Notes under the pieces: model-generated
What the model was told of the DNA's origin: nothing
Database searches by the model: none
The model's input: the letters and a program-made list of their open reading frames with translations, nothing else
In this document: in pieces, positions 25,974 to 43,400 of the stretch
Position numbering within the stretch: position 1 is the first letter of the stretch
Layout of the letters: every line of letters starts with the position of its first letter
Translations under genes and position numbers: made by a program
Assembly: GCF_040954835.1 (NCBI RefSeq)
Contig: NC_090707.1
Location: forward strand, 22,028,570 to 22,092,569
Source of the DNA: Lepisosteus oculatus
Lineage: Eukaryota; Chordata; Actinopteri; Semionotiformes; Lepisosteidae
Length of the DNA: 64,000 bases
Reading direction: 5' to 3'

Positions 25974-26206
25974 TCATTGTAGACTAATGTTTTCACCATG
26001 ATGTTTAAAATTTGATTTTGTTTTCAAATACCGGTATGATACAAAAAAGGTTGTAATTGCACCAACTACTGAAAAAGCTAAGAGAATGTAAAGAGCAACT
26101 TCTGCATCAGACGATGATACTTCCATCCCCAGGAAATTAATCCTTTGTATTGGGGAAGGTCTGGGAGTGTCTGTGGGCTTCATGACAGTGGAAGCTGTGG
26201 TAGAAC
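25974..26206 (-). other. LCT: LCT exon 17: stalk, membrane anchor and cytosolic tail
   Basis: This exon encodes residues 1875-1951. A Thr/Ser/Pro-rich stalk is followed by [10 protein letters not shown], a hydrophobic helix ([20 protein letters not shown], about 1911-1930) and a short basic tail ending ISLQ, then TGA at 25974-25976. This is the type I anchor that holds LPH on the apical membrane. Confidence 0.9.
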
Positions 26207-29200
26207 CTGTGTAATAAATACAAAGGTACAATAAATTGCACATGCAATAAAAAGTATAATATCTAAAAATATAAATGCTTCTTTTCAATGGTGTACCTGA
26301 GCATTTTCAAAGAGTGTTTATTGACATTTCAAATGTAAAATCTGAAGGTTGAAATACACAAATATACAGTATGTGAAAGAAGCTAAGTAAACCAGACAAC
26401 AACTGCCCCACAACCAACACTCCATCATAAACCTTAATGTGAACATTTCCATTTGTCATTCAGCTTCCAGCACCACTGCTGTCCTAAATGATTCAGACAA
26501 ACAACACGTGTTAATTATGAAGTCAGCTGAGCTCAATAGGTGCACATACCTATTTCCTATTCCTTCAAGATGCAGGTACAGTACCTACAGTAACAGAGTT
26601 ACCAGAAGATGTGAATCACTCTGGCTACTATACACATACATAAGTACGACTGATATTGTAGTACCTGTGATATTGATATTGTGAGACTGATATTGACAGT
26701 TCAGAGCCACTAACTCACTGGCACTGCTTATGGCCAATGCTTTGGAAGAGTTTGTATGTACTGTATTTAAACCACACTAAAATATAAACTTAGTAGGTAG
26801 AGTAGCTTCAGAGTGACTTAGCTGTTTTGACTTAGGTTAACCTAAAAGAGTGAAATGCCCAATGGAGAGCTCCACAGAGCAGAGAAAATGTGAATAATAA
26901 ATGAAGTATCTTACTTTCTGGTTCTATTTGAAGACAACCATGAGGACCTTGTGTTGGGTCTTGGAATCCGTTGCACCGTATGATTGTGGAATATCGTCTG
27001 GAAGATTTCTTGGGAATGCGAGGCAAGCTAGGATCAGACTGGTTAACATAGAATAAACCAAACCTCTCTGCAAAGCCTGTAGCCCACTCCAGATTATCCA
27101 TTAGTGTCCAGACTGTGTATCCTCGAATATCCACACCATCCAAAATATAAGCTGTGTAAAGAACATGCAATAAGTACAAATGCAAAACTTAAGGAGTTGT
27201 TTGTAATACTTTACAATTTCCAATATAGTAGATTTAAAAGTTCCAATTACAGGAAGATGCCACATTGAACATCACAGTTTAAGACCACTTACTATGGGAA
27301 AGCTATCAGGATTAATATCAATTGTTGTTTAAAGAATGTGTGCATGTACTGTATGGTGATAGCAAAGATTTGAGAGCAAAGGAAACAGCTGAGATTAGGC
27401 ATGCTCAAAGATGACTCAGTATCTGTCATGGGTGTCATCCCTCCTCTAGAGGGCGCTCCCACCTTTTTTGTATTGTTTTTAGTTTTAGTACTTTCACCTG
27501 TGTCTCGTCCCCTTTTTGTTATCTTAGCCCCGTGTCTCCGCAGTTCCGGGCTCAGCATGGAAGACGGACATCTGAAGGTCCGCCTTTCACCAGGCTCTAG
27601 AGAAGCTTGAGGGAATAGGCCTTATCCCCAGATGTCCTGACCTCTGAGCCCAGGGCTTGGAGCATCTAGTCCTGTCATGTCCGTGTTCCTGGTCCTAGTT
27701 CCCCTTTCCCTGGTTTTAATCGTCTGAGTCTTGGATGGATCTCCCGGCTCTTGGATTACTGTCTGTGCCCTGACTACCACTTTTGGAATTCCCTGGATTT
27801 GGTTGCCTGCGCTCTCCCCCCCGTGCACCGGATCACCACCGTCACCGCCCCCGGTCTTTCAACCCAACCTAACCCTGCAGTGTCTTCCCCTGATGTCCTT
27901 CTCCCGACTCTTCCGGATTATACCGTCACACATAGGGTCTTACCAACACACTTCACAGGAGTCTGACCCAGATCAAGAATCTATATCATGACAAATAAAA
28001 TAATCATCCATGTTGAGAGCATAATAATGCTGGATCTTTGGATTAAGATAGGTGGTGAAATAACAACATGTTAGAATTTATCTCAGATATGCTTGGAAGT
28101 ATGCACTGAAATACCAGTGCTTAAGATCAGCAACAATAAAAGAAATCAAAGTGTCTGCTACTAGAAATCTTCTGTGAACATACCAATAGTTTTGTGTACC
28201 TGTCTGGCTACAGGTAGTGATATTTTACAAATCCATTACTTGAATATAGGCATCACAGCCACCCCTAACAGAACAATTCTTGATTAAATGAAGAATTTAG
28301 CAGATGTCTTTAAAGGCTGTGAGGAAATCAGAGTACTCTGAGAAAACCCATGTGAATACAGGGATCAGCCCCAGGAGGTAGGAAAGGATAGAACCCAGGG
28401 TCTTGGAACTATGCAATGGTGCTATCTACCAGATGGTGGAAAATCTTCATGCTGCCTTTTGATAGGCTATGTGTTTTCTGTTTTGCAGTTGTCAATCAAA
28501 TAATCTAAATTGGCTGAATTGATCTCTCTCATTAGTAATCTTTTATCAACATTTATCAGCAGATGATAGCCTAGATGTGCCCACAAGGGCTGAGGCAACT
28601 CTCCTTTCTGATGCAAATCTTTCTAGTCTAGTTGTATTCTACTTTTATTTAATTGTTTTTCAGATTAGTGAATCTAGTGGAGAAAGAAAACTAAATAGTT
28701 ATATGTGTAAAAACAATAATGACAAATTTCTAGGTGAACTCTTTTCTGATACAATTCTGAAAAAAAAACTATTTTCACTTTGTAGTTACAGTAAATGGGA
28801 AAACAGAAACAGGATAGACTTGTACTTCACCTTTCAGAGCCTGATTGATATAGTTATCATGGTAATGAATTCTGTGGTCATCATTCAGATTAATAGGGCC
28901 ACGCTCAGAGATACCATTTTCGGTGATATAAATAGGGGGGTTCCCATATTCCTCCTTAATGAAATTTAAGATTCTTCTAAACCCAAATGGTGTGACCTTT
29001 AGCCATGCTGACCCAGAGTCCAGCCAGGCACGATCGGCAATTGTTCCTGCCCCCCTAGGGTAAAACAAAGCATTTCTTATTTAACAAAATTTGTGGTTTT
29101 GTATACTCAGTAATTTAAGCGTTGACATTATTCTGTATTTAAATTGTATCTATAATGGTTTATTTTAAGAGTAGTTGAAAGCTCAGTGAAACAATATACT

Positions 29201-32200
29201 TCCAGACATTTATAACCCCTTCTCAAAGTCCAGAAACAGAATACATTGGTCTGACTACTGGAACCAATCCCAAACATTTGCTTTTACTACCCATTATTAT
29301 TTTATATTATTCCACATTAAAAGACATACCTGTCCGCATCATAATGCTGAAGATTCTTATAATCCACATTAAATGTCAGGACTGTAGTATAGTGATTAAA
29401 TCCAAAGTAATCATGGGTACCTTTAATTCTCCTTATCTCCTCTTCTGTGAACTCTGGAAGGCTAAACAGAAACAAAATCTTCACCTCTTGAGGTTTATGT
29501 CACGGATGTCGGAAAGGACGAACTGTGGAATGGCAGGAGAGCATAAAAGACCCTATGCGTAGTGGCAAGACAGGGGTTAGCCTGGGCTCAGCTGTTCAGG
29601 AAATGCCGTATAGAAACCTATGCCGTAGCGGACGTGGGGCGACCTGGTGCTAGGCGGGTCTCAGGACATCTGAACGTCAATGCTGAGTCAAGGCAAATGA
29701 AAGACCCAGAAATATATAGCCCCAGAGAGAGAGAAACACCGGAAGGACAGCAAAGCATCGGAAACAAGAGACAGGACAGAGAAGGAGCGCCCTCTGGCTG
29801 CAGAGGGTGTGACAGCACCCCCCTTATTGGGTCCAGAGAAAAAGAAAAAAGCTGCGGGAAAAACAAAAGACACCGCTCACAGGGTCGAAAAAGGCTTAGC
29901 AATATATAGACCCAGAAATATATAGCCCCAGAAAGAGAGAAACACCGGAAGGACAGCAAAGCACTGGAAACAAGAGACAGGACAGAGAAGGAACGCCCTC
30001 TGGCTGCAGAGGGCATGACAGTTTATTTATCAATTTAGAGAAGGTACCCAGATAATTGCAATTCCTGTCACTGTACAAGAGTTTGACATGTTCTGTAGAC
30101 TTAAAAACAACACTTATTATTAAAGCAATAGCTCTGTTTGGGCTAACTTACTCTTACCTTTGATGTATTTTTGTCCTTTTATCACCTCAATTCCCTACTA
30201 TATTGCTCTGTCAAGCCATTATGCTTATATACCCAGTTTTATTGTACCCCTTTTTCCCTACAGCTTTACAAAATGCAAATGGCAACTTATTGCAACAAAT
30301 GCACTGTAAATTGGATTTGACTATAAACCAACAGAAGCCAATTTAATCTTTGTGTTCAATAGCTGGTCCCAAATGAAACAATGGTTATCCAATTAATGAA
30401 TTTAAACATCTTACCGAGACTTTGAAAGACCAGCAGCCAAGCTCCTTTCTCGAATTCTTGTCTTCATCAATTCATTATAATCTCCTTTAAACACAGGGTG
30501 AGCAAACCATCCTATATAAAACTATAGTGAAATAAAACATTACACTTCAGCATTGATAACTGGTGAAGAGTAAATAAAATGTTTTTCCTTTAAAACAAAT
30601 TAAACTGTTTTTGAATACACAACAAGGGCTGCAGAGAATTCTCTACAATGACAATGAAATGTGTTTGTTCAGCTGTAATGAATTGCTTTTTGCATGATAA
30701 TTTCATAGCAATTTATGCTCAGTTATAATTGGTGAAAATAATAGTTTTCAAATTTAAGAGCAACTGTCTAACTTCTTTAGTATGTAATAATTAAAAATAT
30801 TGCAGTCTAATAAAGCTGCATCTGAGAAGAGCATTTTTATTTATTTCAATAGTACACCAGATGGCAGTATACCATCAGTTTATCCATCCATTTTCTAACC
30901 ACTATTTCCAGTACAGGGTGGCAGGGGACTCAGAGGCTATCCCGGCAAGCAATGGGTGCAAGGCACAATATACCCTGGATGAGACGGAAGTACAACACTC
31001 CTCCAAAATAGAATCAAAATAACTTAATTGGTCATTATAGCATCAACACGTGAAAGTATTAACCACAAACTATTTAACATTACAACTGAATATGCTGTCA
31101 TATTGATCATTTAAGGTTGTTCTATGATTTCAGTCATTAGCAGCAAGAATTTTGTAACAAGCATACCCTAAGTACAGTATTTGCTTTTGGAGGGTTCTGA
31201 CTACATCGTAAACTGTAAGATGGCATGAAGAACTGTAGTATATTGTGCAGACTAAAAGGTATACCCGAATTTAAAGTTTAGAAATAAACATAAACTAACA
31301 TCGTATTCATCTATTGTAGCAAGCAGCATTATGATGCTAGTCTTATTATAATGATATCTGATTTGAAAAAAAAAACAACTTAAATAACCCTCATCTAATT
31401 GTAGGTGTAGTTGAGAGTTTGCCAAGTGCACTACCTGTAGAACGCGCCTAGCAGCATCAATGTCCTCTTGTTTGTAAGGGTTCCTTGGCTCTGTCCAGTC
31501 TGAGTTGATGGTAATGGAGATTAGTCCACCCTGCTTTTGTCTGTATTTGTCATTATAAAGGTGCCAGGCTTCAGCATGAGCTTTAAGAAGGTTATGGCCA
31601 ACCACATAAGGTGCTGTGCCTGGCCTAAAGCTGATTCCTTGAAACAGAAAGGTAAAAATCAAGCAATATTTACTGTTACACCAGTTATGAAATTTAAGTC
31701 TCATAGGGATATTTGTTGAAGGATGGCTTGCAGAGTTGAAAACACACATACAAATGGTTACAATTTGAGTTTCCACCTGAACAAATGATTAAATTAATGG
31801 GATGAGAACACGTCTCTCCACCTTTCTTCAAATTATATTTTGAGCATTCAGTTTTCTCCATATACTACCAATAGATTAAAAAAGATTCTTGCTTATAGTA
31901 TATCAAGCACCAGACTGTTGCCCTGCCAAGGGAGAATCCCATACCTGGTGCAGCTGTTCCATAGCCATGTCCTATGTTTGCCACATTATAGGGCTCATTG
32001 ATTGTGATCCAGAATTTCACTTTTTCCCCTAGCCTGCTGAAAATGACATCAGCATAACTCTTAAATCTCTGTACAATGGTTTCATTTTCCCAACCCCCCT
32101 CATCCTGCAGGGCCTGAGGGAGATCCCAGTGGTACAAGGTCACCTATTCAGACAATAGAGCACAACAAATTCAAGCCATATCAAGTCACTGTTTAATATT

Positions 32201-35200
32201 CCATCGCAGAAAACAATCAATCCACTATAATGAAGGATAGTGTTTAAGCAGAAAAGCTCAGTTCTTTATAGTATTTTAATTGTATTATTTCTTTATGTCT
32301 TCCCAATAGTTTTAGTAAAGGCTTACCATTAGCACTAAAACAAAATAATATAGTATAGCGTAAAGTATAGTGAAACTTCTGTCACCTAATCAAAACCCAC
32401 CATCATTTTGTAAAACATACACTGGATGTAACAAGATAAAGGTCAGTTTATCCAAATGCGTATTTTATTTATACAATGTGTTCACAGCTTACCTGTGGCT
32501 GTATGTTAGCAGCAAGAAGTTTATCAATAAGACGATGATAATAGTTGAGTCCCTTTTCATTTATGTACCTTGGGGTTCCATCAGGTAGAACCCTTGGCCA
32601 GGATATGGAGAAGCGATAGTGAGTCACCCCAAGCTTTTTCAGCATAGCCACATCCTCATCAATTTTGTTGTAGCTGTCACAAGCAATATCTCCATTCTCA
32701 TCATTACCCACTTTCAATGGAGTGTGTGCAAAGGTGTCCCAGATGCTCACTCCCTTTCCATCGGCCCTCCAGCCTCCTTCAATCTTTAATTATGGAAAAA
32801 ACGTTTGTGCAATCAGCCTTGTTTAACTGTGCCAATGGTTTAATATAATCAAATAATCATTATCCTAAACACTGGAGTGGAGTATTTCATACCTGTTATG
32901 TGACTTTATAAGTACATACTTCCCATCAATTAGGTCAATATTAAAACACATTTTTAAGTATTATTTCCTTCTTTTTAGTTGGAAGAAACGGCTTAAAATG
33001 AGATAATTTACCTGATAAGATGCTGTTGCAACACTCCAAGCAAAATCCTTTCTAAACTGTGCATACAAGAGCTTTTCATCATCTGGCATAGGGAATCCAT
33101 TATTTTTTATGATTTGGAAAAAGTAATGAGCAGAGCGTTTAGGGGTTCGTGGTCGAATCGGGTTCTTGAAGTCCACATGGTGAAGACCAAAGCCAACATT
33201 GTAGCCCTCCAGCCATTCAAAAGAGTCCATCAGAGACCAGGCTGTGTATCCTTTTAATCTTACACCATCCAAATTGTAAGCTGTAATATAAACAGCACAA
33301 ACATTGTATTTGTGTTTTCACATCCATTCTGATATCCAATGAATTAAATCTATATTTAATTTACTACTTGAATTGAAAGCATGCCACTCTATACTCACTC
33401 TATTGTTCTGAACACATAATTACATAATTTAAAGTAACTTTTAACAAGAAATTTACTTTATAATACATGCCAGTTTATTCAATTCATAGAGGCTATATGA
33501 ATTAATTTGTTTGTACTGTGTAGGATCAAACCAGACCAACGTTCTAACAAACCAAACTACTAATTGTCTAATATTTAATAAATTGTCCAGTTGTCCTAGA
33601 ACCAAACCAAAGATATCAATACAGTGCCTTGCGAAAGTATTCGGCCCCCTTGAACTTTTCAACCTTTTGCCACATTTCAGGCTTCAAACATAAAGATATA
33701 AATTTTTTATTTTATGTGAAGAATCACTAACAAGTGGGACACAATTGTGAAGTGGAACGAAATCTATTGGATTTTTGAAATTTTTTTAACTAATAAAAAA
33801 ATGAAAAGTGGGGCGTGCAAAATTATTCGGCCCCTTTACTTTCAGTGCAGCAAACTCACTCCAGAAGTTCAGCGAGGATCTCTGAATGATCCAATGTTGT
33901 CCTAAATGACTGATGGTGATAAATAGAATCCACCTGTGTGTAATCAAGTCTCTGTATAAATGCACCTGCTCTGTGATAGTCTCAAGGTTCTGTTGAAAGC
34001 GCAGAGAGCATCATGAAGACCAAGGAACACACCAGGCAGGTCCATAATACTGTTGTGGAGAAGTTTAAAGCTGGATTTGGATACAAAAAGATTTCCCAAG
34101 CTTCAAACATCCCAAGGAGCACTGTGCAAGCGATCATCTTGAAATGGAAGGAGTATCAGACCACTGCAAATCTACCAAGACCTGGCCGTCCCTCTAAACT
34201 TTCAGCTCAGACAAGGAGAAGACTGATCAGAGATGCAGCCAAGAGGCCCATGATCACTCTGGATGAACTGCAGAGAACTACAGCTGAGGTGGGAGAGTCT
34301 GTCCATAGGACAACAATCAGTCTTACACTGCACAAATCTGGCCTTTATGGAAGAGTGGCGAGAAGAAAGCCATTTCTCAAAGATATCCATAAAAAGTCTC
34401 GTCTAAAGTTTGCCACAAGCCACCTGGGAGACACCCCAAACATGTGGAAGAAGGTGCTCTGGTCAGATGAAACCAAAATCGAACTTTTTGGCCACAATGC
34501 AAAACGATATATTTGGCGTAAAAGCAACACAGCTCATCACCCTCAACACACCATCCCCACTGTCAAACATGGTGGTGGCAGCATCATGGTTTGGGCCAGC
34601 TTTTCTTCAGCAGGGACAGGGAAGATGGTTAAAATTGAGGGGAAGATGGATGCAGCCAAATACAGGACCATTCTGGATGAAAACCTGTTGGAGTCTGCAA
34701 AAGACCTGAAACTGGGACGGAGATTTATCTTCCAACAAGACAATGATCCCAAACATACAGCAAAATCTACAAAGGAGTGGTTCACAAATAAACGTATCCA
34801 GGTGTTTGAATGGCCAAGTCAAAGTCCAGACCTGAATCCAATCGAGAATCTGTGGAAAGAGCTGAAAACTACTGTTCACAAACGCTCTCCATCCAACCTC
34901 ACTGAGCTCGAGCTGTTTTGCAAGGAAGAATGGGCAAGAATTTCAGTCTCTCGATGTGCAAAACTGATAGAGACATACCCCAAGCGACTTGCAGCTGTAA
35001 TCGCAGCAAAAGGTGGCTCTACAAAGTATTAACGCAAGGGGGCCGAATAATTTTGCACGCCCCACTTTTCATTTTTTTATTAGTTAAAAAAGTTTCAAAA
35101 ATCCAATAGATTTCGTTCCACTTCACAATTGTGTCCCACTTGTTGGTGATTCTTCACATAAAATAAAAAAATTATATCTTTATGTTTGAAGCCTGAAATG

Positions 35201-38200
35201 TGGCAAAAGGTTGAAAAGTTCAAGGGGGCCGAATACTTTCACAAGGCACTGTAGGTATTCAACTTAATCCTTGAATTAGGAATATTCATTTGGAAGCTTC
35301 GTATGCACTGCAACTTAAAAATCTTACCTTTCAGTGCTTCATCAATGTAAGTTTTATAAAAGAACATTCTATCTGTGTCATCCACAGTAGATTTTGAATC
35401 AGTTGACACCCCATTCTCAGTGATATAGATTTCTGGGTTGCCATATTCATCCTTTATCCAGTTCAGAAGTCTTCTCAGGCCCCAGGCAACAGCTTTAAAC
35501 TCATTCATAGCAGTACCAGGCCAGTCATTTTCTACTGCTTCACCAAGATCCCGATCATAATCATAAGAATAGGGCTTTAGCCTGGCGGTTACATGATGCA
35601 CAATTTTAGTGGTATAAGAATTAATACAGAAGACATCAGCAGTTCCCTGGATATAGTCCTTTTCTTGCTCTGTGAAAGCGGGAAGCCTAGATTCTGGCAG
35701 GCCTTGCAACTCACTTTTGTTACCTACCTGCCATTTCAGTGCATCTGGGTAGTCCCCATTTTTAAAAATGGGGTGTGCAAACCAACCAAGCTGGAACTGG
35801 AGGTAACGGTCAGCAGCCACTATTTCTCTGGGTACATTTACGTCCTTGGGTTCTACCCAGTCAGCATTAAGGCTTAGGGAGACCAGACCACCTTGGACAC
35901 TTCTGTATTTCTTGTCATAAGTGTGATAAGCCATAGCATGAGCTTTTAAGAGATTGTGGGCAACTCTATAAGGGGCATCTCCTGGACTCTTCACATTGGG
36001 AGGCATCAATCCTTTGGCATAGCCTGCCCATGCAATAGTATGGGGCTGGTTAAAAGTCATCCAGAACTTGACTCTGTCTCCAAAGGTTGCAAAACAGAAG
36101 TCAGCAAATTCATTGAATATTTCAATCATCTGCTCATTCTCCCAACCTTTAATATCCTGCAAGGCTTGAGGAAGGTCCCAGTGATAGATGGTTACCATTG
36201 GAGTAATATTGTAAGCCAGGAGACCATTGATGAGTCTGTTGTAATACTCCACTCCTTTCTCATTCAGTGATCTGATTCTACCATCAGGAAAAATCCTTGG
36301 CCAGGACAAAGAGAATCTATAAGACTTAGCCTTCAAAGCCCTTAACATGTACAGGTCTTCCTCTATTTTATTGTAGCTATCACAGGCCACATCCCCAGTG
36401 TCATTGTTCTTGATGCTGTTGGGCTTGTGTGTAAAAGTGTCCCAAACACTTGGTCCCTTCCCATCAGTATTCCATGCACCTTCGATCTGATAGGCTGAGG
36501 TTGACACACCCCACTGAAATTCTTCTGAGAAGGTTCCATAGTGGAAAAGCTTCCTCTCGAATTTAGATTGGCGAGAAAACTTCTCCCAGACAATCTTAGC
36601 TTTTGAGGGAACATCAGATGGAGGTAGACCAGGCAGCTTGGTAACCTTAGGTTGAGAAATAAGATTTTGGGGCAATATCTTGTCTTTTCTGCTTATAAAT
36701 CCATTATTTTCAATGATTTGTGAATAGAAATATGCTGATTTTTTTGGTGTTCTTGGCCTGTTAATGTCTTCAAAGTTTACATAATGCAAACCAAACCTCT
36801 GACTATAACCTTCTGGGCCTTCAAAACCATCCATCAGTGACTGCACAGTGAAGCCTCTCACATCCACTCCATCTATCTGTATCGCTGATTAAATAAAATT
36901 AAATTAATGTTAGCTTTTCATACATAATGCAGAATAAAGTACATTTTAAATCAGTCAATCAAAATGTTCTGTTCAATACATTTAAATTAATCTGAGAGAA
37001 TGTGGAAAATATCTTTTAAACCCACCAGAAAAGTCAGTCCTAACCTTCCTGAGAAGTCTTTACACAATTATTGAATGTGAGGCACTTTTATTGTACTTTT
37101 AAGATTTCCAGACATTTGGCATATACTCTTTAAATCTACAGGGAATTTATAGTGATACGAGCTATAAACAAAGTGATTTGTACATTAAATGCATTTAATA
37201 AATACAGTGAATTTAGCTAAACTGCGTAGCCACAGTTATCTACTGTAAATGAAGATGGACAACCTGAATTGGAAGGAAGTATTGTGAAATGAACAGAGAA
37301 AATATCAAAACTCAGTAAACACTCACCCTTCAAAGCTTCATTAATGTAACTGTTAAGAAAATGAATACGCTGTGTATCATTGAGAACCTCTCCGTTGTAT
37401 TCTGTTGGCATTCCATTTCCTGTTATGTAAATGGGAACTCTAGAGGCAGATGTGTATTCTGCGGCTATAAAATTTAGGAGCCGTCGAATCCCCCATGGGA
37501 CTGAGAAAATCCAGGGAGAGGCAGTCTTTGGCCAAGAGGGATCAACATCCTCTTTGAAATCCCCCACATTATGTGGTCCTGGGTTGCAGACTTTAGGGCT
37601 GGAACTGATCAGCCGAGATGTGTAATGGTTGAGTCCAAAGAAATCAGCTGCTCCTTTAATTTTCAACTTCTCTGCTTCAGTAAAAAGTGGAAGCCTAGCC
37701 AGCTCTTTCTGGGGACATTCCTGGTTTTTCTGCTCAATCTGTTTTTTCAGTATTTCTGGATAATCACCATTGACGAAAAGAGGGTGAGCGAACCAGCCCA
37801 GCATGAACTGCAGGTAGCGCTCTGCAGCCTCCACATCCTGAGGGCTGGAAGAATTCTTGGGCTCTGCCCAGTTAGAATTTAAGGCAATGCCCACTTTTCC
37901 TCCTTGGAGAGGTCGGTATTTGTTATTATAAACATGCCAGGCCTCAGCGTGGGCTTTGATTATCATGTGAGTTACCTTCATAAAAAAGAAGAATACAGCA
38001 ATGAACAGAAATGCATTAATTATCATATTTACATTTACAAGATGATTTTCAAACACCTTTTCTTCAGTACCAAAGCTTCTCTCAAACAGTTTGAATGTGC
38101 TGAAAACACTTACAGATGCATATCTGGAAAGGGCCAAAGCAAGTGTGGAACAGAAATAAGAAAAAACCTTGAACAATAATAACATTTTCCTACTTCTACT

Positions 38201-41200
38201 TTTGGATTTTCTTTTTGCTGTATTTTATTTTGACATCAAAATAAATTAAACATATTTACTGGAGTAAAAACTTTAGAAGTTGCCATATTCTGCTTTACCT
38301 TTGGTAATCCCTGCTTGTGCTGACTACAATATGTCAAACATATTGCAGGTGTGATACTTTGTATCCTTTATTAAGACTGAAATATCAATACTCTTTAGTT
38401 TTATTGGAATGCTTTTACTTAGTTTCTGTTTCTTATGTTTCAAACAAAAGTGTTGCCGTATGTACCTGGTAGGAAGCAATTATTGGGTCTGAGATTCCAG
38501 GAGGGTGTTGTCCAGTACCATATCCTGCATAACTAACAACCCAAGGGCTGCTGAAAGTGTTCCAAACTTTCACACGGTCTCCAAACCTAGAAAAGCAAAA
38601 GTCTGCATATTCCTTGAATGCTTGTATGATGGATTCGTTCTGCCAGCCACCCTGGTCCTGCAGGACCTGAGGCAGGTCCCAGTGATAGAGAGTCACTACT
38701 AGCTCAATGTTGGACTGCAGAAGACCGTCAATTAGTTTGTCATAATAAAGAGCACCTTTCTCATTTAAGCTGCTATTGTGGCCAGTGGGGAAGATTCTAG
38801 CCCAAGAAATGGAGAACTGGTACGTCTTGCTGTGGAGGCCTCTCAAGAGGTAAACATCATAATCGATTTTATTGTAGCTGTCACAAGCCAGGTCAGCTGT
38901 CTGGTTCTGGAAGACATTCCCCTCGTGGGAAAACCGATCCCAGATTGTCTCTCCCTTTCCATGTTCTGCCCAGCCACCTTCCACCTTGAATGATTCGCTG
39001 GACGTGCCCCACTGAAAACCATCTGGAAAGGTACTATTGAGGAAAAGGTCTTTTTCAGACACTGGTTGGTCTGCAAACTTTGCCCAAACAGTCTGATAAG
39101 ATGAGAACAGCGAATGGTCGTTCACTGTAGTCTTAGAGCTCTCAGCAGCAGCCTTCTCTGAAGCTTTGAGCTCACTCAGTTGACTGGATTAAAGGTAAAA
39201 GAAAGAAAAGAAAATATTTATGAACAGAATCAACTATAATGTGAAATGTGAATTTTTACTCAGGAAATATGTCAACTAGGCTAGTATTATATTATTTATG
39301 ATAATATTGTTTATGTTAGCATTAACATTCTTTAGCATAATCAGTTTTGTTGTTTAAAGTAGCAATACAAAAACTCTTCTATTATTTTTGAGTTTTTCAT
39401 ATAATATGTACTACATAACAGTATTGGAAACTGCAATATGGAGCAAATTGTAAAAGGGCTTCTCATATTAACGATGGACTTTCAATATTCCATCCATTCA
39501 TTTTCTAACTGCATCATCTAATTCAAGAGTGTGAGACTTTCTCAGCAAGCAACATTCAACATGAATTTCTTTTTTTTTCAGTATTAATATGATTCCAACA
39601 TCTTGACTACATAATCAAAATAACTGCAAGTTTCTCAAAAACTGTTAAAGAAACAAAAAAATACCCTTGTGAGTTGTTCTCCACAGTCAGTTGGTCAAAG
39701 ATGTCAACGATGTCACATCCCATGATCCTCAGTTCATTCTGTTGCAGAGCTGTGAAATTGTAATATACTGTAAAGTATCATTCTTCAGGGAACAATATCA
39801 AGAACATATGTATAGTTTAGATTATTTTAGGAAGGGTGAAAGTGAGGTTTTCTTAAGAAAGGCAAAATATGATTTTGACACTATTGATATTTTAAAATCT
39901 TGTTCACCATTACAGTACTATTTCAAGACTATAAAATGTCTTATAAAGCATTCAGATTTGCAACTTCACAATGCAAGTCAATACCATAAATAAGTCACAT
40001 CACTTCAGATACTGTATCCCTTTGACTTGATGTTAGACTTATCTGACAATACGTAAATCTTAACTATTTAATTATTATAATTATAATGATTTAAATGAGC
40101 CCCCAAATTCAACTTATACATTTCTAATAAAACTATAGTGAATTGTTTTCAGTTCTAGTACCGTCGGAGCTTTATTTCACATACAAAGAATCATGCATGA
40201 AACCAGTAACTTGAAAACTTTGTCCTCTTTTGAAGCAGAAAATGATAAAAAATGTATGATTAACTAAATAATTGGTTCAGATAAGGCCCCAACTTTTAAA
40301 TTAATTGAATTTGAACAGACAATAGATTAAGAAGAACCGGTACTCAAAAACAATGGGCTAAAGGTAATATAAAATTCAGTTTCACAGATTGGAGGTATTT
40401 GTCACCTTACCTTTCAGTAAACTGGCTAGGGGCTGGAACTGATGGTCATATGCTGAGCTACAGCCTTCACCATGCAACTCGTAGATCAAAACTGGCACAT
40501 CATTAAACATGGCTCCCTGAATGATGAATAGCCTCAAATAAAACGATTGCTCGTGGTGGTATATCTTTATTTTCACATATCGCGGTGCATCTGAAGACTG
40601 GGTTAGTAGCTTTGAACTCTGTTTCATGACAGTGGTGAATGACTAAAGGAAATCTTAAGTTTTTTTTTACCTGAATTGGTTTTATCATAATTCTAAGTCT
40701 ATAATTTATTGTACTGTTAAGCTTCACAAGGCATAAAGCATTCGTCTTGATTTCAGCCTTGATCCATTTTTCCATTTTCCAACTTCTTCAACTAGTACAA
40801 GAAGGCAGAGGATTCGCAGCCAACACAAGCAATGGGTGCAATGGGTACACCCTGGACAAGACGCCAGTCCATCACAGGACACACACAGACACACAGACAC
40901 ACACACACTTTTTCCAGAAGCCAATTAACCTACTGTACCAGTATGCTTTTTGGGCTTTGGAAGGAAACTAAAGCACCTGCAGGAAATCCATGCAAACATG
41001 AGGAGACCATACAAATTCCACCCAGATACCACCCAAGGCCCCAGTGCTGTAAGACAGCAATGTTAGCCTCTATGCCAACCATTCCAGTCTTCATATGTAG
41101 TATTTTTGTCATTCTGTTTACATTCATTCAGTTTTTGTACTTTATGAAGGTAAATAAGTCATTTGAGACAGTTATGCAGTATTTGTTACCTGTATCTTTA

Positions 41201-43323
41201 AAAATTCCACCTGCAAGTTTGTTTCCAATTTACAGTCATAGTTGACGTGCACAGCAAGGAAATCTATAAATCCCTAAATGAAAAAAATAATATTAATAAT
41301 ATTTCCTTAATACTTTCTGTTACATTCACTTCATGAATGTGTCTGGACATCAGACTTAATACAGATTTTCATGTTTTTGCATTAAATACCTGCTTCATCA
41401 TTACCTTGTACATATTGTCAGTTTGATAAAAAATGTTTTTTCTCTTAATGTCACTAGCTTTCATTCCAAGGGAGATCTGTCCACCTGTAAGAATATTAAA
41501 AGAGCATATGTTGTTAGAGAAACATAAAAAAGTATTATCTTAAGAATACTAGGAAATAGGTTTACTGGGTTAAACTCCTAAAATATTATTTTACAATATT
41601 ATTGTATCTTAGCAAAAATTGATAGTGTTCTGAATGTATGAATGTACCAGAACACTATCAATTTTTGCAGTAGTAAAAAAATCAGAGATACCTTTTAGCA
41701 AGTTGCACTCAAAGCTTATGAATTAATATTTCATGTTATCAACATACTGTTATGCTAATTGAGCATTGTAGAAAAAGGCAAAAAAATTGAAAATAAAAAA
41801 TGTAACTGATGTATATATCCTGCAGGACTGATGCCATAATTGACCTTTTAGATTTAGATTTTAGATTGTTATAGTAAATTAACCACTTTATAAGAAGCCT
41901 CTTCACAGTTTTATACAATGTATGTCTGAACACTTGTAGTGTACTCAAGCAGGTAAAACATGAAAATTATATGTGCCTCCCCATAACTCCCCTGCTAAAC
42001 ATTATTATACTAGATCCATTATATAATTTCGACCTTTGTAAGCTATGAAATAAAGATAAAAACTGCAGAGTTGCATTTACTCAAAGATAAATAATCTCAG
42101 ATATGACTTGTAATTGTAGTCCAAAAGGTTTCTCCTAGAACCCTTTGGAGTGACTTGTGACTAAAAAATAATGGTATATTCTGTTTTTCATGTAAAACAA
42201 AACATACTGTTAGAACATGAAAATCTGAATCAGTTCATTGGAAAATTAACAATTTAACACAGATACATCATTGTCCTTGCCCTTTTAAGTCAAACTTTTG
42301 TAGTAGTTATGACTGTTTAAAGACCAATTAAATGGAAATACATTTTTAGTAGTTATTTTTGGTTTAAGTTAAATTATAGAAAAATGTAGAATACTTAACA
42401 GCAAGGAGATCTTTGTTCTACAGACTTTCAGATAAAAACACAATAGGCCTTTATACAATGCTGTCCTTTAAATGGTATTAACTATTTTTGCTTTGACTGT
42501 AAGACAAGAGCTTAACTACAGAAAAATACATTCGTTTACACATCTGAAATAATTCGAAAGTAGTCTGATATCCTCAATGAGGATATTTCTGATATAATAT
42601 TCATGACATTGTATTAACACTAGAGCCAGATGAATTCTTACCTTTAGCAGAAAGTAATTGGTGGTAAAGACTGTACACTTTTTTGTGGGCAAGTAAAGAA
42701 TTTTCGAATACAGGCGTTTTAAGGCTGGAAGAGACCGAATCTTTCTGGTGTCCCTCTTCAATCATCTCATAAAACTTGCTGAATGTTATCCAGGACTCTG
42801 CAAGACCTCCCAAACTTGAAAATACAAATTTGGCATATTCTTCAAAAAGACTCACAAATGTCTCATTTTCCCAGCCTCCATGTTTTGCCTTCAAGACCTC
42901 AGGCACACCTGAATGGTGCAGCACTATGAGAGGCTTGAGAGTGGCTTCTGACAGCTGTGCAAGGAAGTTCCTGTAGCAGGAGAGAGTCTCCAGGTGAGCA
43001 TTCTTCGGATCACCTTCAGGCAGGAGGCTTGTCCAGGAAAGGATCACTTTAAAATGAGTTATCCCTCTTGAACGAAGGTAATTGAAATAGTATTGAGCAG
43101 AAGGGGGCAGGGGGGATTGACAATTAAAGACCTCTGCCTCACCTTCCCCCTGAATCTTTGAAGCCAATGCTTGAAAATTGAGGGTTCCTCGGTTCAAGGC
43201 ATTCACAAAGTTTTTAGTTAGGGGACCCCCAAGGAGCATAAATTCTTCTTGGTCTTGGACCCCACTGCCAAAGCAAGTGCATGGTAACAGGAGAAGAAGA
43301 AGGATCTGAACATCTTGCCTCAT
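25974..43323 (-). CDS. LCT: Lactase-phlorizin hydrolase, 17 exons, 1951 aa
   Basis: Intestinal brush-border beta-glycosidase (GH1) that splits lactose and aryl- or ceramide-glucosides. Coding exons, 5' to 3' on the minus strand: 43323-42642, 41484-41405, 41273-41190, 40516-40411, 39749-39665, 39183-38466, 37975-37327, 36884-35328, 33280-33012, 32783-32493, 32143-31945, 31637-31435, 30521-30415, 29461-29330, 29054-28831, 27151-26915, 26206-25974. All introns are GT-AG, phases agree, and the joined length is 5856 bp (1951 codons plus stop), close to the 1927 aa of the human protein, which also has 17 exons. The start ATG is followed by a leucine-rich signal peptide. Four GH1 regions follow, then a Thr/Ser/Pro stalk, a membrane segment (about 1911-1932) and a short basic tail. 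Both active-site Glu are present in region IV; region III has Gln at the acid/base site. The gene is divergent from AAMP. Confidence 0.96.
27424..27993 (+). mobile_element. Solo-LTR-like element in LCT intron 15, 570 bp
   Basis: Starts TGTCATGGGTGTCATCCC and ends ATATCATGACA. It is homologous along its length to the 14042-14579 copy. Flanks do not give a clear target duplication, so it may be old or rearranged. It is noticeably GC-rich against the intron. Confidence 0.6.
29498..30020 (-). mobile_element. Solo-LTR-like element in LCT intron 13, 523 bp, internal duplication
   Basis: The termini are TGTCACGG...GGCATGACA and the flanks are an exact 5-bp duplication GTTTA (29493-29497 and 30021-30025). 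A block of about 110 bp (AGACCCAGAAATATATAGCC to GAGGGTGTGACAG) occurs twice, at about 29701-29814 and 29908-30020. Open frames across it are non-coding artefacts. Confidence 0.72.
30880..31005 (-). repeat. tRNA-SINE 3' fragment in LCT intron 12
   Basis: ATCCATCCATTTTCTAACCA, CAGTACAGGGTGGCAGGGG and CCTGGATGAGAC are the inverted 3' end of the SINE. Similar short pieces lie at 39487-39560 and 28325-28440. Confidence 0.6.
33622..33834 (+). repeat. Left terminal inverted repeat of the Tc1 element
   Basis: Begins CAGTGCCTTGCGAAAG directly after the target TA. Outer and inner direct repeats lie near its two ends (AAAGTATTCGG at the outside, AAAATTATTCGG at the inside). Confidence 0.92.
34013..35032 (+). 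CDS. Tc1-like transposase, 339 aa, intact
   Basis: The cut-and-paste transposase of the Tc1 element. The N-terminal two-part paired-like DNA-binding region (residues 1-115) includes the helix-turn-helix around [14 protein letters not shown] and a GRPSKLS linker (the GRPR-like motif). The catalytic domain has WSDETK (Asp152), the glycine-rich [10 protein letters not shown] box, QQDNDPKH (Asp243) and [11 protein letters not shown] (Glu278). There are 34 residues between the last two acids, a DD34E triad. The length matches the 340 aa usual for the family. There are no stops or frameshifts; the stop codon ends just before the right terminal repeat. The start is the first ATG after the left repeat. 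Possibly still active (inference). Confidence 0.96.
   Translation: MKTKEHTRQVHNTVVEKFKAGFGYKKISQASNIPRSTVQAIILKWKEYQTTANLPRPGRPSKLSAQTRRRLIRDAAKRPMITLDELQRTTAEVGESVHRTTISLTLHKSGLYGRVARRKPFLKDIHKKSRLKFATSHLGDTPNMWKKVLWSDETKIELFGHNAKRYIWRKSNTAHHPQHTIPTVKHGGGSIMVWASFSSAGTGKMVKIEGKMDAAKYRTILDENLLESAKDLKLGRRFIFQQDNDPKHTAKSTKEWFTNKRIQVFEWPSQSPDLNPIENLWKELKTTVHKRSPSNLTELELFCKEEWARISVSRCAKLIETYPKRLAAVIAAKGGSTKY
35037..35251 (-). repeat. Right terminal inverted repeat of the Tc1 element
   Basis: Reverse complement of the left repeat with only a few substitutions; ends at CACTG before the target TA. Confidence 0.92.
36560..39183 (-). other. LCT: LCT GH1 region II (catalytically degenerate pro-region)
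   Basis: Exon 6, exon 7 and the first part of exon 8, residues about 399-870. The GH1 fold is easily followed ([25 protein letters not shown]), but the acid/base motif reads T-F-S-S-P (Ser558 in place of Glu) and the nucleophile motif reads I-T-G-N-G (Gly771 in place of Glu). The usual W-S-L-x-D-N-F-E-W segment reads QSLMDGFEG and has lost both tryptophans. Region II therefore cannot hydrolyse glycosides by the retaining GH1 mechanism, as expected for the removed pro-part. Basic residues around 906-913 lie between regions II and III and are a possible processing site (inference). Confidence 0.88.
40762..41085 (-). mobile_element. tRNA-derived SINE copy in LCT intron 3
   Basis: Inverted copy: ACACCCTGGACAAGACGCC, a CA-rich run (40873-40909), CAGAAGCCAATTAACCTAC and AAGGCCCCAGTGCTGTAAGA. 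It lies between LCT exons 4 and 3. Confidence 0.68.
41612..41668. repeat. LCT: Perfect 21-bp inverted repeat in LCT intron 1
   Basis: GCAAAAATTGATAGTGTTCTG (41612-41632), a 15-nt spacer, then the exact reverse complement (41648-41668). Confidence 0.95.
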
Positions 43324-43400
43324 CTTTGCTGTGTGAAGACAATCTTAGCTATTATTGCCACATAAACTTACGTTTTGTGTGAAACCTTTAAACCATCTCA
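43324..43400 (-). promoter_or_regulatory. LCT: LCT proximal promoter (putative)
   Basis: Just upstream of the LCT ATG the minus strand shows TTTATG (43361-43366), an AATAAT run (43351-43356) and TTTAAA (43388-43393). Mammalian LCT has a very short 5'UTR and CDX2-type TTTAT/TTTAC sites in this position, so these are plausible TATA- or CDX-like elements. Assignment rests on position and short motifs only. Confidence 0.3.

Follow-up and report, generated by a model that had tools for sequence, protein, structure and literature searches.

Region III of the lactase gene (LCT) in the window, the 64,000 nucleotides of Lepisosteus oculatus DNA analysed here, carries a glutamine in the acid/base column of its GH1 barrel, and the question raised by this locus is what such a region can do next to an intact region IV. 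Our preferred reading, to which we give a probability of about 0.58, is that region III is probably a hydrolytically crippled but structurally retained partner of region IV, as judged from sequence and from related proteins. If the Gln is fixed in the lineage, the gene offers a natural test of why LCT has kept region III, either for catalysis (the hydrolysis of phlorizin and glycosylceramide) or only for the transport of region IV, and it adds a further case to the losses of the acid/base carboxylate in Klotho, LCTL and the tandem glucosidases of molluscs. Were it restricted to one individual, it would be of little consequence.

The LCT gene and the catalytic codon of region III

Searches with tblastn, combined with reading of the frames, placed four GH1 regions followed by a transmembrane segment on the minus strand (Table 1), which is the architecture of LCT and bears out the four-region gene of the original prediction. 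Between 38466 and the beginning of region IV, the borders are GT-AG with matching phases, and the matches of region IV extend down to about 26964 on the same strand; of region I, the gene model contains the first part. No signs of a pseudogene were seen in the frames, in the borders or in the frame of the transmembrane segment. The catalytic pairs (acid/base and nucleophile) are Ser/Gly in region II, Gln/Glu in region III and Glu/Glu in region IV. With both catalytic glutamates in TINEP and YITENG, region IV has the full residue pair of an active GH1 site, and its expected role as an ordinary lactase site appears sound.

Table 1. Features of the LCT gene and of its introns in the window
Feature	Position	Strand	Observation
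Region I (degenerate GH1), open frame	42604..43344	-	N-terminal hydrophobic, signal-like stretch by reading; GT donor follows 42642
Region II exon, N-terminal half	38466..39183	-	Acid/base position Ser (TFSSP); upstream border a candidate, partner exon not placed
Region II exon, C-terminal half	37327..37975	-	Nucleophile position Gly (YITGNG)
Exon joining the C-terminal end of region II to the bulk of region III	35328..36884	-	Open, about 1.56 kb; phase 1 on either side, with AG and GT borders by reading
Region II C-terminal motif	36805-36840		Preceded by TVQ
Exon with C-terminal end of region III and start of region IV	33012..33280	-	SLMDSFEW of region III intact
Tc1/mariner element, complete	33622-35251		Intronic in LCT, 76 bases away from the exon of region III
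Region IV exon, matched stretch	31940..32143	-	Acid/base Glu intact (TINEP)
Overlapping ORFs	29547-30022	+ and -	In an intron within region IV; 120 aa on +, 134 aa on -
Region IV exon, matched stretch	28823..29062	-	Nucleophile Glu intact (YITENG)
Presumed exon with transmembrane segment and cytoplasmic tail	25977..26306	-	Open frame

Three other features of the gene were noted along the way. The C-terminal motif of region II has lost two conserved glycone-site Trp, on top of the loss of both catalytic glutamates, and the overlapping ORFs in the intron within region IV are perhaps repeat-derived. The Tc1/mariner element has inverted repeats of about 220 bases that are 97% complementary, TA on both sides, and a stop-free transposase ORF of 339 aa (Pfam HTH_Tnp_Tc3_2, DDE_3 and HTH_SB). 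The best 40 of its 882 candidate copies in the same genome were scored, and all of them, the window's copy included, are full-length at an identity of at least 99%, which points to a very recent burst that is perhaps still active.

The codon in question, at 36046-36048, reads ctg on the plus strand and CAG (Gln) on the minus strand, and it falls in the acid/base column of region III, within W-M-T-F-N-Q-P-H (motif TFNQP). Human LPH has Glu at this position of region III. Both this codon and the nucleophile motif YITENG, 210 residues further downstream, lie in one stop-free ORF (36888..35239), and a PF00232 score of 542 bits assigns that ORF to the GH1 family. By reading, the glycone-site motifs YQIEG, YHWDLP, NxY, TENG and FEW are intact, and region III departs from an active GH1 site in having Gln at the strand 4 position, with Glu on strand 7. 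The original prediction had named this codon and its motif, the residues 1081 and 1291 with the same spacing, and the intact nucleophile and substrate-site motifs; the minus-strand reading agrees with it in the codon, the spacing and the motifs, and confirms both base and residue in this sequence. It had also proposed that one base (C for G) separates the two states, and this holds in the comparison within the genome: the acid/base codon is GAG in 5/5 of the compared GH1 domains that bear Glu, so the CAG of region III differs by one G-to-C transversion.

This single step, together with the otherwise intact catalytic-site motifs, is what would be expected if the Gln were recent and private, that is, a segregating allele, a newly fixed loss or a base error, with relatives that keep Glu. 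The assembly (1.2 Gb in 813 contigs) offers no cross-check on this point: when it was searched at the DNA level for the region III exon, the two hits were the exon's own locus (100%) and region II (65%), and no second haplotype copy was found. Against an error, the exon has neither stop nor frameshift, and there is no positive sign of a wrong base. In its fixed-loss form, this alternative would imply that the animal has little need to hydrolyse phlorizin, and we hold the whole of it to be unlikely, although worth taking seriously. Were the Gln private to the individual or to the species, a scaffold role for region III would not be needed to explain it.

Conservation, related GH1 genes and predicted structure

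Scans of the collections of genome contigs and of viral contigs with region III returned no LCT relatives, and scans of the same collections with alignment A1 returned 28 bacterial loci and one viral locus, with no fish LCT among them. Across the 29 GH1 loci fetched (28 bacterial and one from a viral contig), the acid/base column is Glu in 29/29, and the nucleophile column is Glu in all 28 loci with coverage there, L006 being the one not covered. The possibility that another locus, L021, was animal contamination was considered and rejected, as it is an ordinary uninterrupted bacterial ORF among bacterial-looking genes. Among the literature matches listed for fish and vertebrate lactase, no title or abstract opening was about this residue.

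To what extent region III has decayed can be read from its other positions. At the 51 positions that are at least 90% conserved among the 29 loci, region II deviates 12 times, region III 7 times and region IV 4 times; at the 70 positions obtained with the 25 better-scoring loci, the corresponding numbers are 16, 10 and 7. Two of the seven deviations of region III (Gly to Ser and Asp to Glu) are identical to those of region IV, and none of the seven other than the Gln was recognised as a catalytic residue. Two further changes, Gly to Cys in DVFCIN and Gly to Asn in PPN, were considered as decay and rejected, since neither deviates at a 90%-conserved position; the Cys of DVFCIN is also present in human region III.

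In a domain tree that included 7 of the 29 bacterial and viral loci, and in which the rows for akuD1, akuD2 and the PDB Klotho are partial (304 to 320 aa), the terminal branches measure 0.45 for region III, 0.51 for region II and 0.55 for region IV, with rough lengths and weak deep nodes (bootstrap of 16 to 58 around the LCT regions and LCTL). Identities to nine outside sequences give another picture, with region IV above region III in eight of the nine, and region III above region II in five, below it in three and equal to it in one; region III is consequently about as distant as the doubly dead region II. The evidence from rates on the decay of region III thus appears mixed, its shortest branch being set against an identity lower than that of region IV. 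Branch lengths and identities are, moreover, long-term averages that cannot date a loss.

The comparison within this genome took in ten GH1 domains, region I being left out, with genes named from their architecture and from grouping with the PDB beta-Klotho (bootstrap 98, one KL1). The acid/base residue is Glu in five, Asn in three, Ser in one and Gln in one, and an amide at this position with the nucleophile Glu kept occurs in 4/10. The three Asn belong to an LCTL-like gene and to the KL1 domains of two Klotho genes. The LCTL-like gene (L038, G000 C5:47.76 Mb) reads TFNNP and YVTENG, with Asn at the acid/base position and the nucleophile kept. Among the five domains with Glu there is a near-identical GBA3-like pair on different contigs (L042, G000 C1:62.98 Mb, and L043/L044, G000 C14:36.13 Mb), with branch lengths of about 0 and 0.005, which is either a recent duplication or an assembly artefact.

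The AlphaFold model of region III, built from alignment A2 (15 of the 29 loci) and comprising 430 residues without the last strand, has a mean pLDDT of 73 and a pTM of 0.83. It supports a predicted GH1 fold with both catalytic positions at strand ends, Gln191 immediately behind strand 185-190 and Glu401 as the last residue of strand 397-401, at low confidence near the nucleophile (pLDDT 44 for block 401-410). The Foldseek matches listed for this model, the best 50 of 1677, are GH1 proteins.

Possible roles of region III

In the retaining mechanism, an enzyme without its acid reacts only with substrates that have good leaving groups, and without its base it releases the sugar slowly. In our preferred reading of region III as a crippled but retained partner of region IV, the replacement of the acid/base Glu by Gln would have left the nucleophile and the glucose-binding motifs of the barrel in place. 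The region would then cleave ordinary glycosides very slowly for want of the acid and, for want of the base, would release a trapped glucosyl-enzyme slowly, which would make it at most semi-active, on good-leaving-group substrates. Structures of mutants agree with this established mechanism: rice BGlu1 E176Q is called 'semi-active' in a PDB title and is reported both bound covalently to a 2-fluoro-glucoside inhibitor and complexed with oligosaccharides (PMC7356692), and according to another PDB title Os3BGlu6 E178Q carries a covalently attached glucosyl derived from p-nitrophenyl glucoside.

Region III would, at the same time, see the catalytically intact region IV through its folding and transport, and we propose that it may have been kept because the whole proprotein needs it. 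That turnover is lost and that region III acts as a scaffold we infer from GH1 chemistry and from mammalian LPH, for which PMC6412902 reports that domain III is transport-competent alone and that domain IV needs domain III. The precedents of Klotho, akuBGL, LpMDGH1 and mammalian LPH would make a crippled but kept region III the simplest reading. Among the points against it is the otherwise intact pocket, which would be surprising after an old loss of catalysis; the mixed rates and a contrary review on the Klotho domains are others. The 'binding-only' state named in the original prediction seems compatible with the evidence, as does very weak activity.

A ligand-binding role, with region III as a lectin-like or receptor-like pseudo-glycosidase of the kind proposed for Klotho domains, would combine the intact glycone-site motifs with a crippled catalysis, and the Asn with a kept nucleophile in both Klotho KL1 domains and in the LCTL-like gene of this genome is in line with it. 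Precedents by analogy are the descriptions of alpha-Klotho in its soluble form as a possible lectin and of KL2 of KLB as an FGF21-binding pocket (PMC10628560). The intact region IV of LCT points instead to digestion and no ligand is known, and such a role seems improbable to us.

The original prediction also raised a myrosinase-like, transglycosylating site, of which the shared Gln stands. Selection would in this case have favoured a site that passes glucose from good-leaving-group glycosides to an outside nucleophile, or that needs an outside base such as ascorbate. Region III shares with the classical (QE-type) plant myrosinases the Gln in the acid/base column and the nucleophile Glu and, in the comparison with the chains from S. 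alba and Arabidopsis, Asn186 and Gln187 are common. In myrosinase, Arg194 and Arg259 (S. alba numbering) have a part in sulfate/ascorbate binding and in the aglycone/ascorbate pocket. Their counterparts in region III are Ala and Asp, and a myrosinase-like character beyond the Gln is therefore not supported. Region III also differs in belonging to an animal protein.

Neither is the Gln diagnostic in itself: atypical EE-type myrosinases are reported to work with Glu and without Gln (PMC6691170), so that Gln alone says little about thioglucosides, and KL1 of beta-Klotho, a 'not real' hydrolase in the words of PMC10628560, has Asn with a kept nucleophile. In favour of this reading, the covalent glucosyl intermediate that the title of the Os3BGlu6 E178Q entry describes was formed from an activated glucoside, and the aphid myrosinase (1wcg) is among the PDB matches listed, at rank 16 by sequence and rank 11 by Foldseek. 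Against it, no plant myrosinase was found among the best 60 of 185 sequence matches or the best 50 of 1677 Foldseek matches. On the sequence comparison, we regard a selected site of this kind as quite improbable. Least likely of all would be a one-base conversion followed by selection for a Gln/Glu site with a long-lived glucosyl-enzyme that transfers glucose or binds glycosides, a reading that includes convergence with plant myrosinase at the key residue.

Comparison with known systems

An acid/base amide with the nucleophile kept is a known and recurrent state in animal GH1 domains, which was absent from the original prediction. KL1 of beta-Klotho has Asn241 at the acid/base site according to PMC10628560, and our PDB alignment shows its nucleophile Glu retained. 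The same source describes KL2, like KL1, as not a real glycoside hydrolase; it calls the first Glu the nucleophile at one point and later calls the KL2 counterpart, Glu693, the acid-base catalyst. A review takes the contrary position that the KL1 and KL2 domains of alpha-Klotho have 'glycosidase activity' (PMC10650206). Region III and beta-Klotho KL1 are alike in the amide that replaces the carboxylate while the nucleophile Glu is kept, and unlike in that KL1 has Asn and not Gln, has its preceding residue also changed (to His) and is part of a co-receptor. Furthermore, a Klotho-type pseudo-glycosidase has two GH1 domains, whereas LCT has four GH1 regions, and the likeness is a resemblance in a protein that is LCT by architecture. 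LCTL (Klotho-lactase-phlorizin hydrolase, gamma-Klotho), represented in this genome by the gene with TFNNP and YVTENG, is likewise different from region III in having Asn and not Gln, and one GH1 domain was found in that gene; for the mouse protein, the title of one cited study refers to an atypical active site.

Closer in layout are the tandem GH1 proteins of molluscs. Among the matches listed, akuBGL of Aplysia kurodai (PDB 8in1) is the best PDB sequence match of region III, via its D2, and the third by fold. Its GH1D1 has Asp192 and Glu404 and is reported to have no activity on O-PNG; a chaperone role towards D2 has been proposed for it, and its authors state that an effect of N-glycosylation could not be ruled out (PMC10619976). 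It resembles region III as one domain of a tandem GH1 protein that has lost its acid/base residue and kept the nucleophile, and differs in the Asp at that position and in that its glycone-binding residues are also lost (PMC10619976). Since these residues are gone, and given the N-glycosylation caveat, its inactivity is not directly transferable to region III. In the shipworm, LpMDGH1 is described with six domains, two of them without catalytic motifs, and the same source reports LPH-like sequences from fish (PMC5840672).

Mammalian LCT has the same four GH1 regions and transmembrane tail, with regions III and IV as the catalytic candidates and a nucleophile Glu in each of them (Glu1273 and Glu1749 in human LPH; PMC6412902); the gene described here is unlike it at the acid/base position of region III, where it has Gln.
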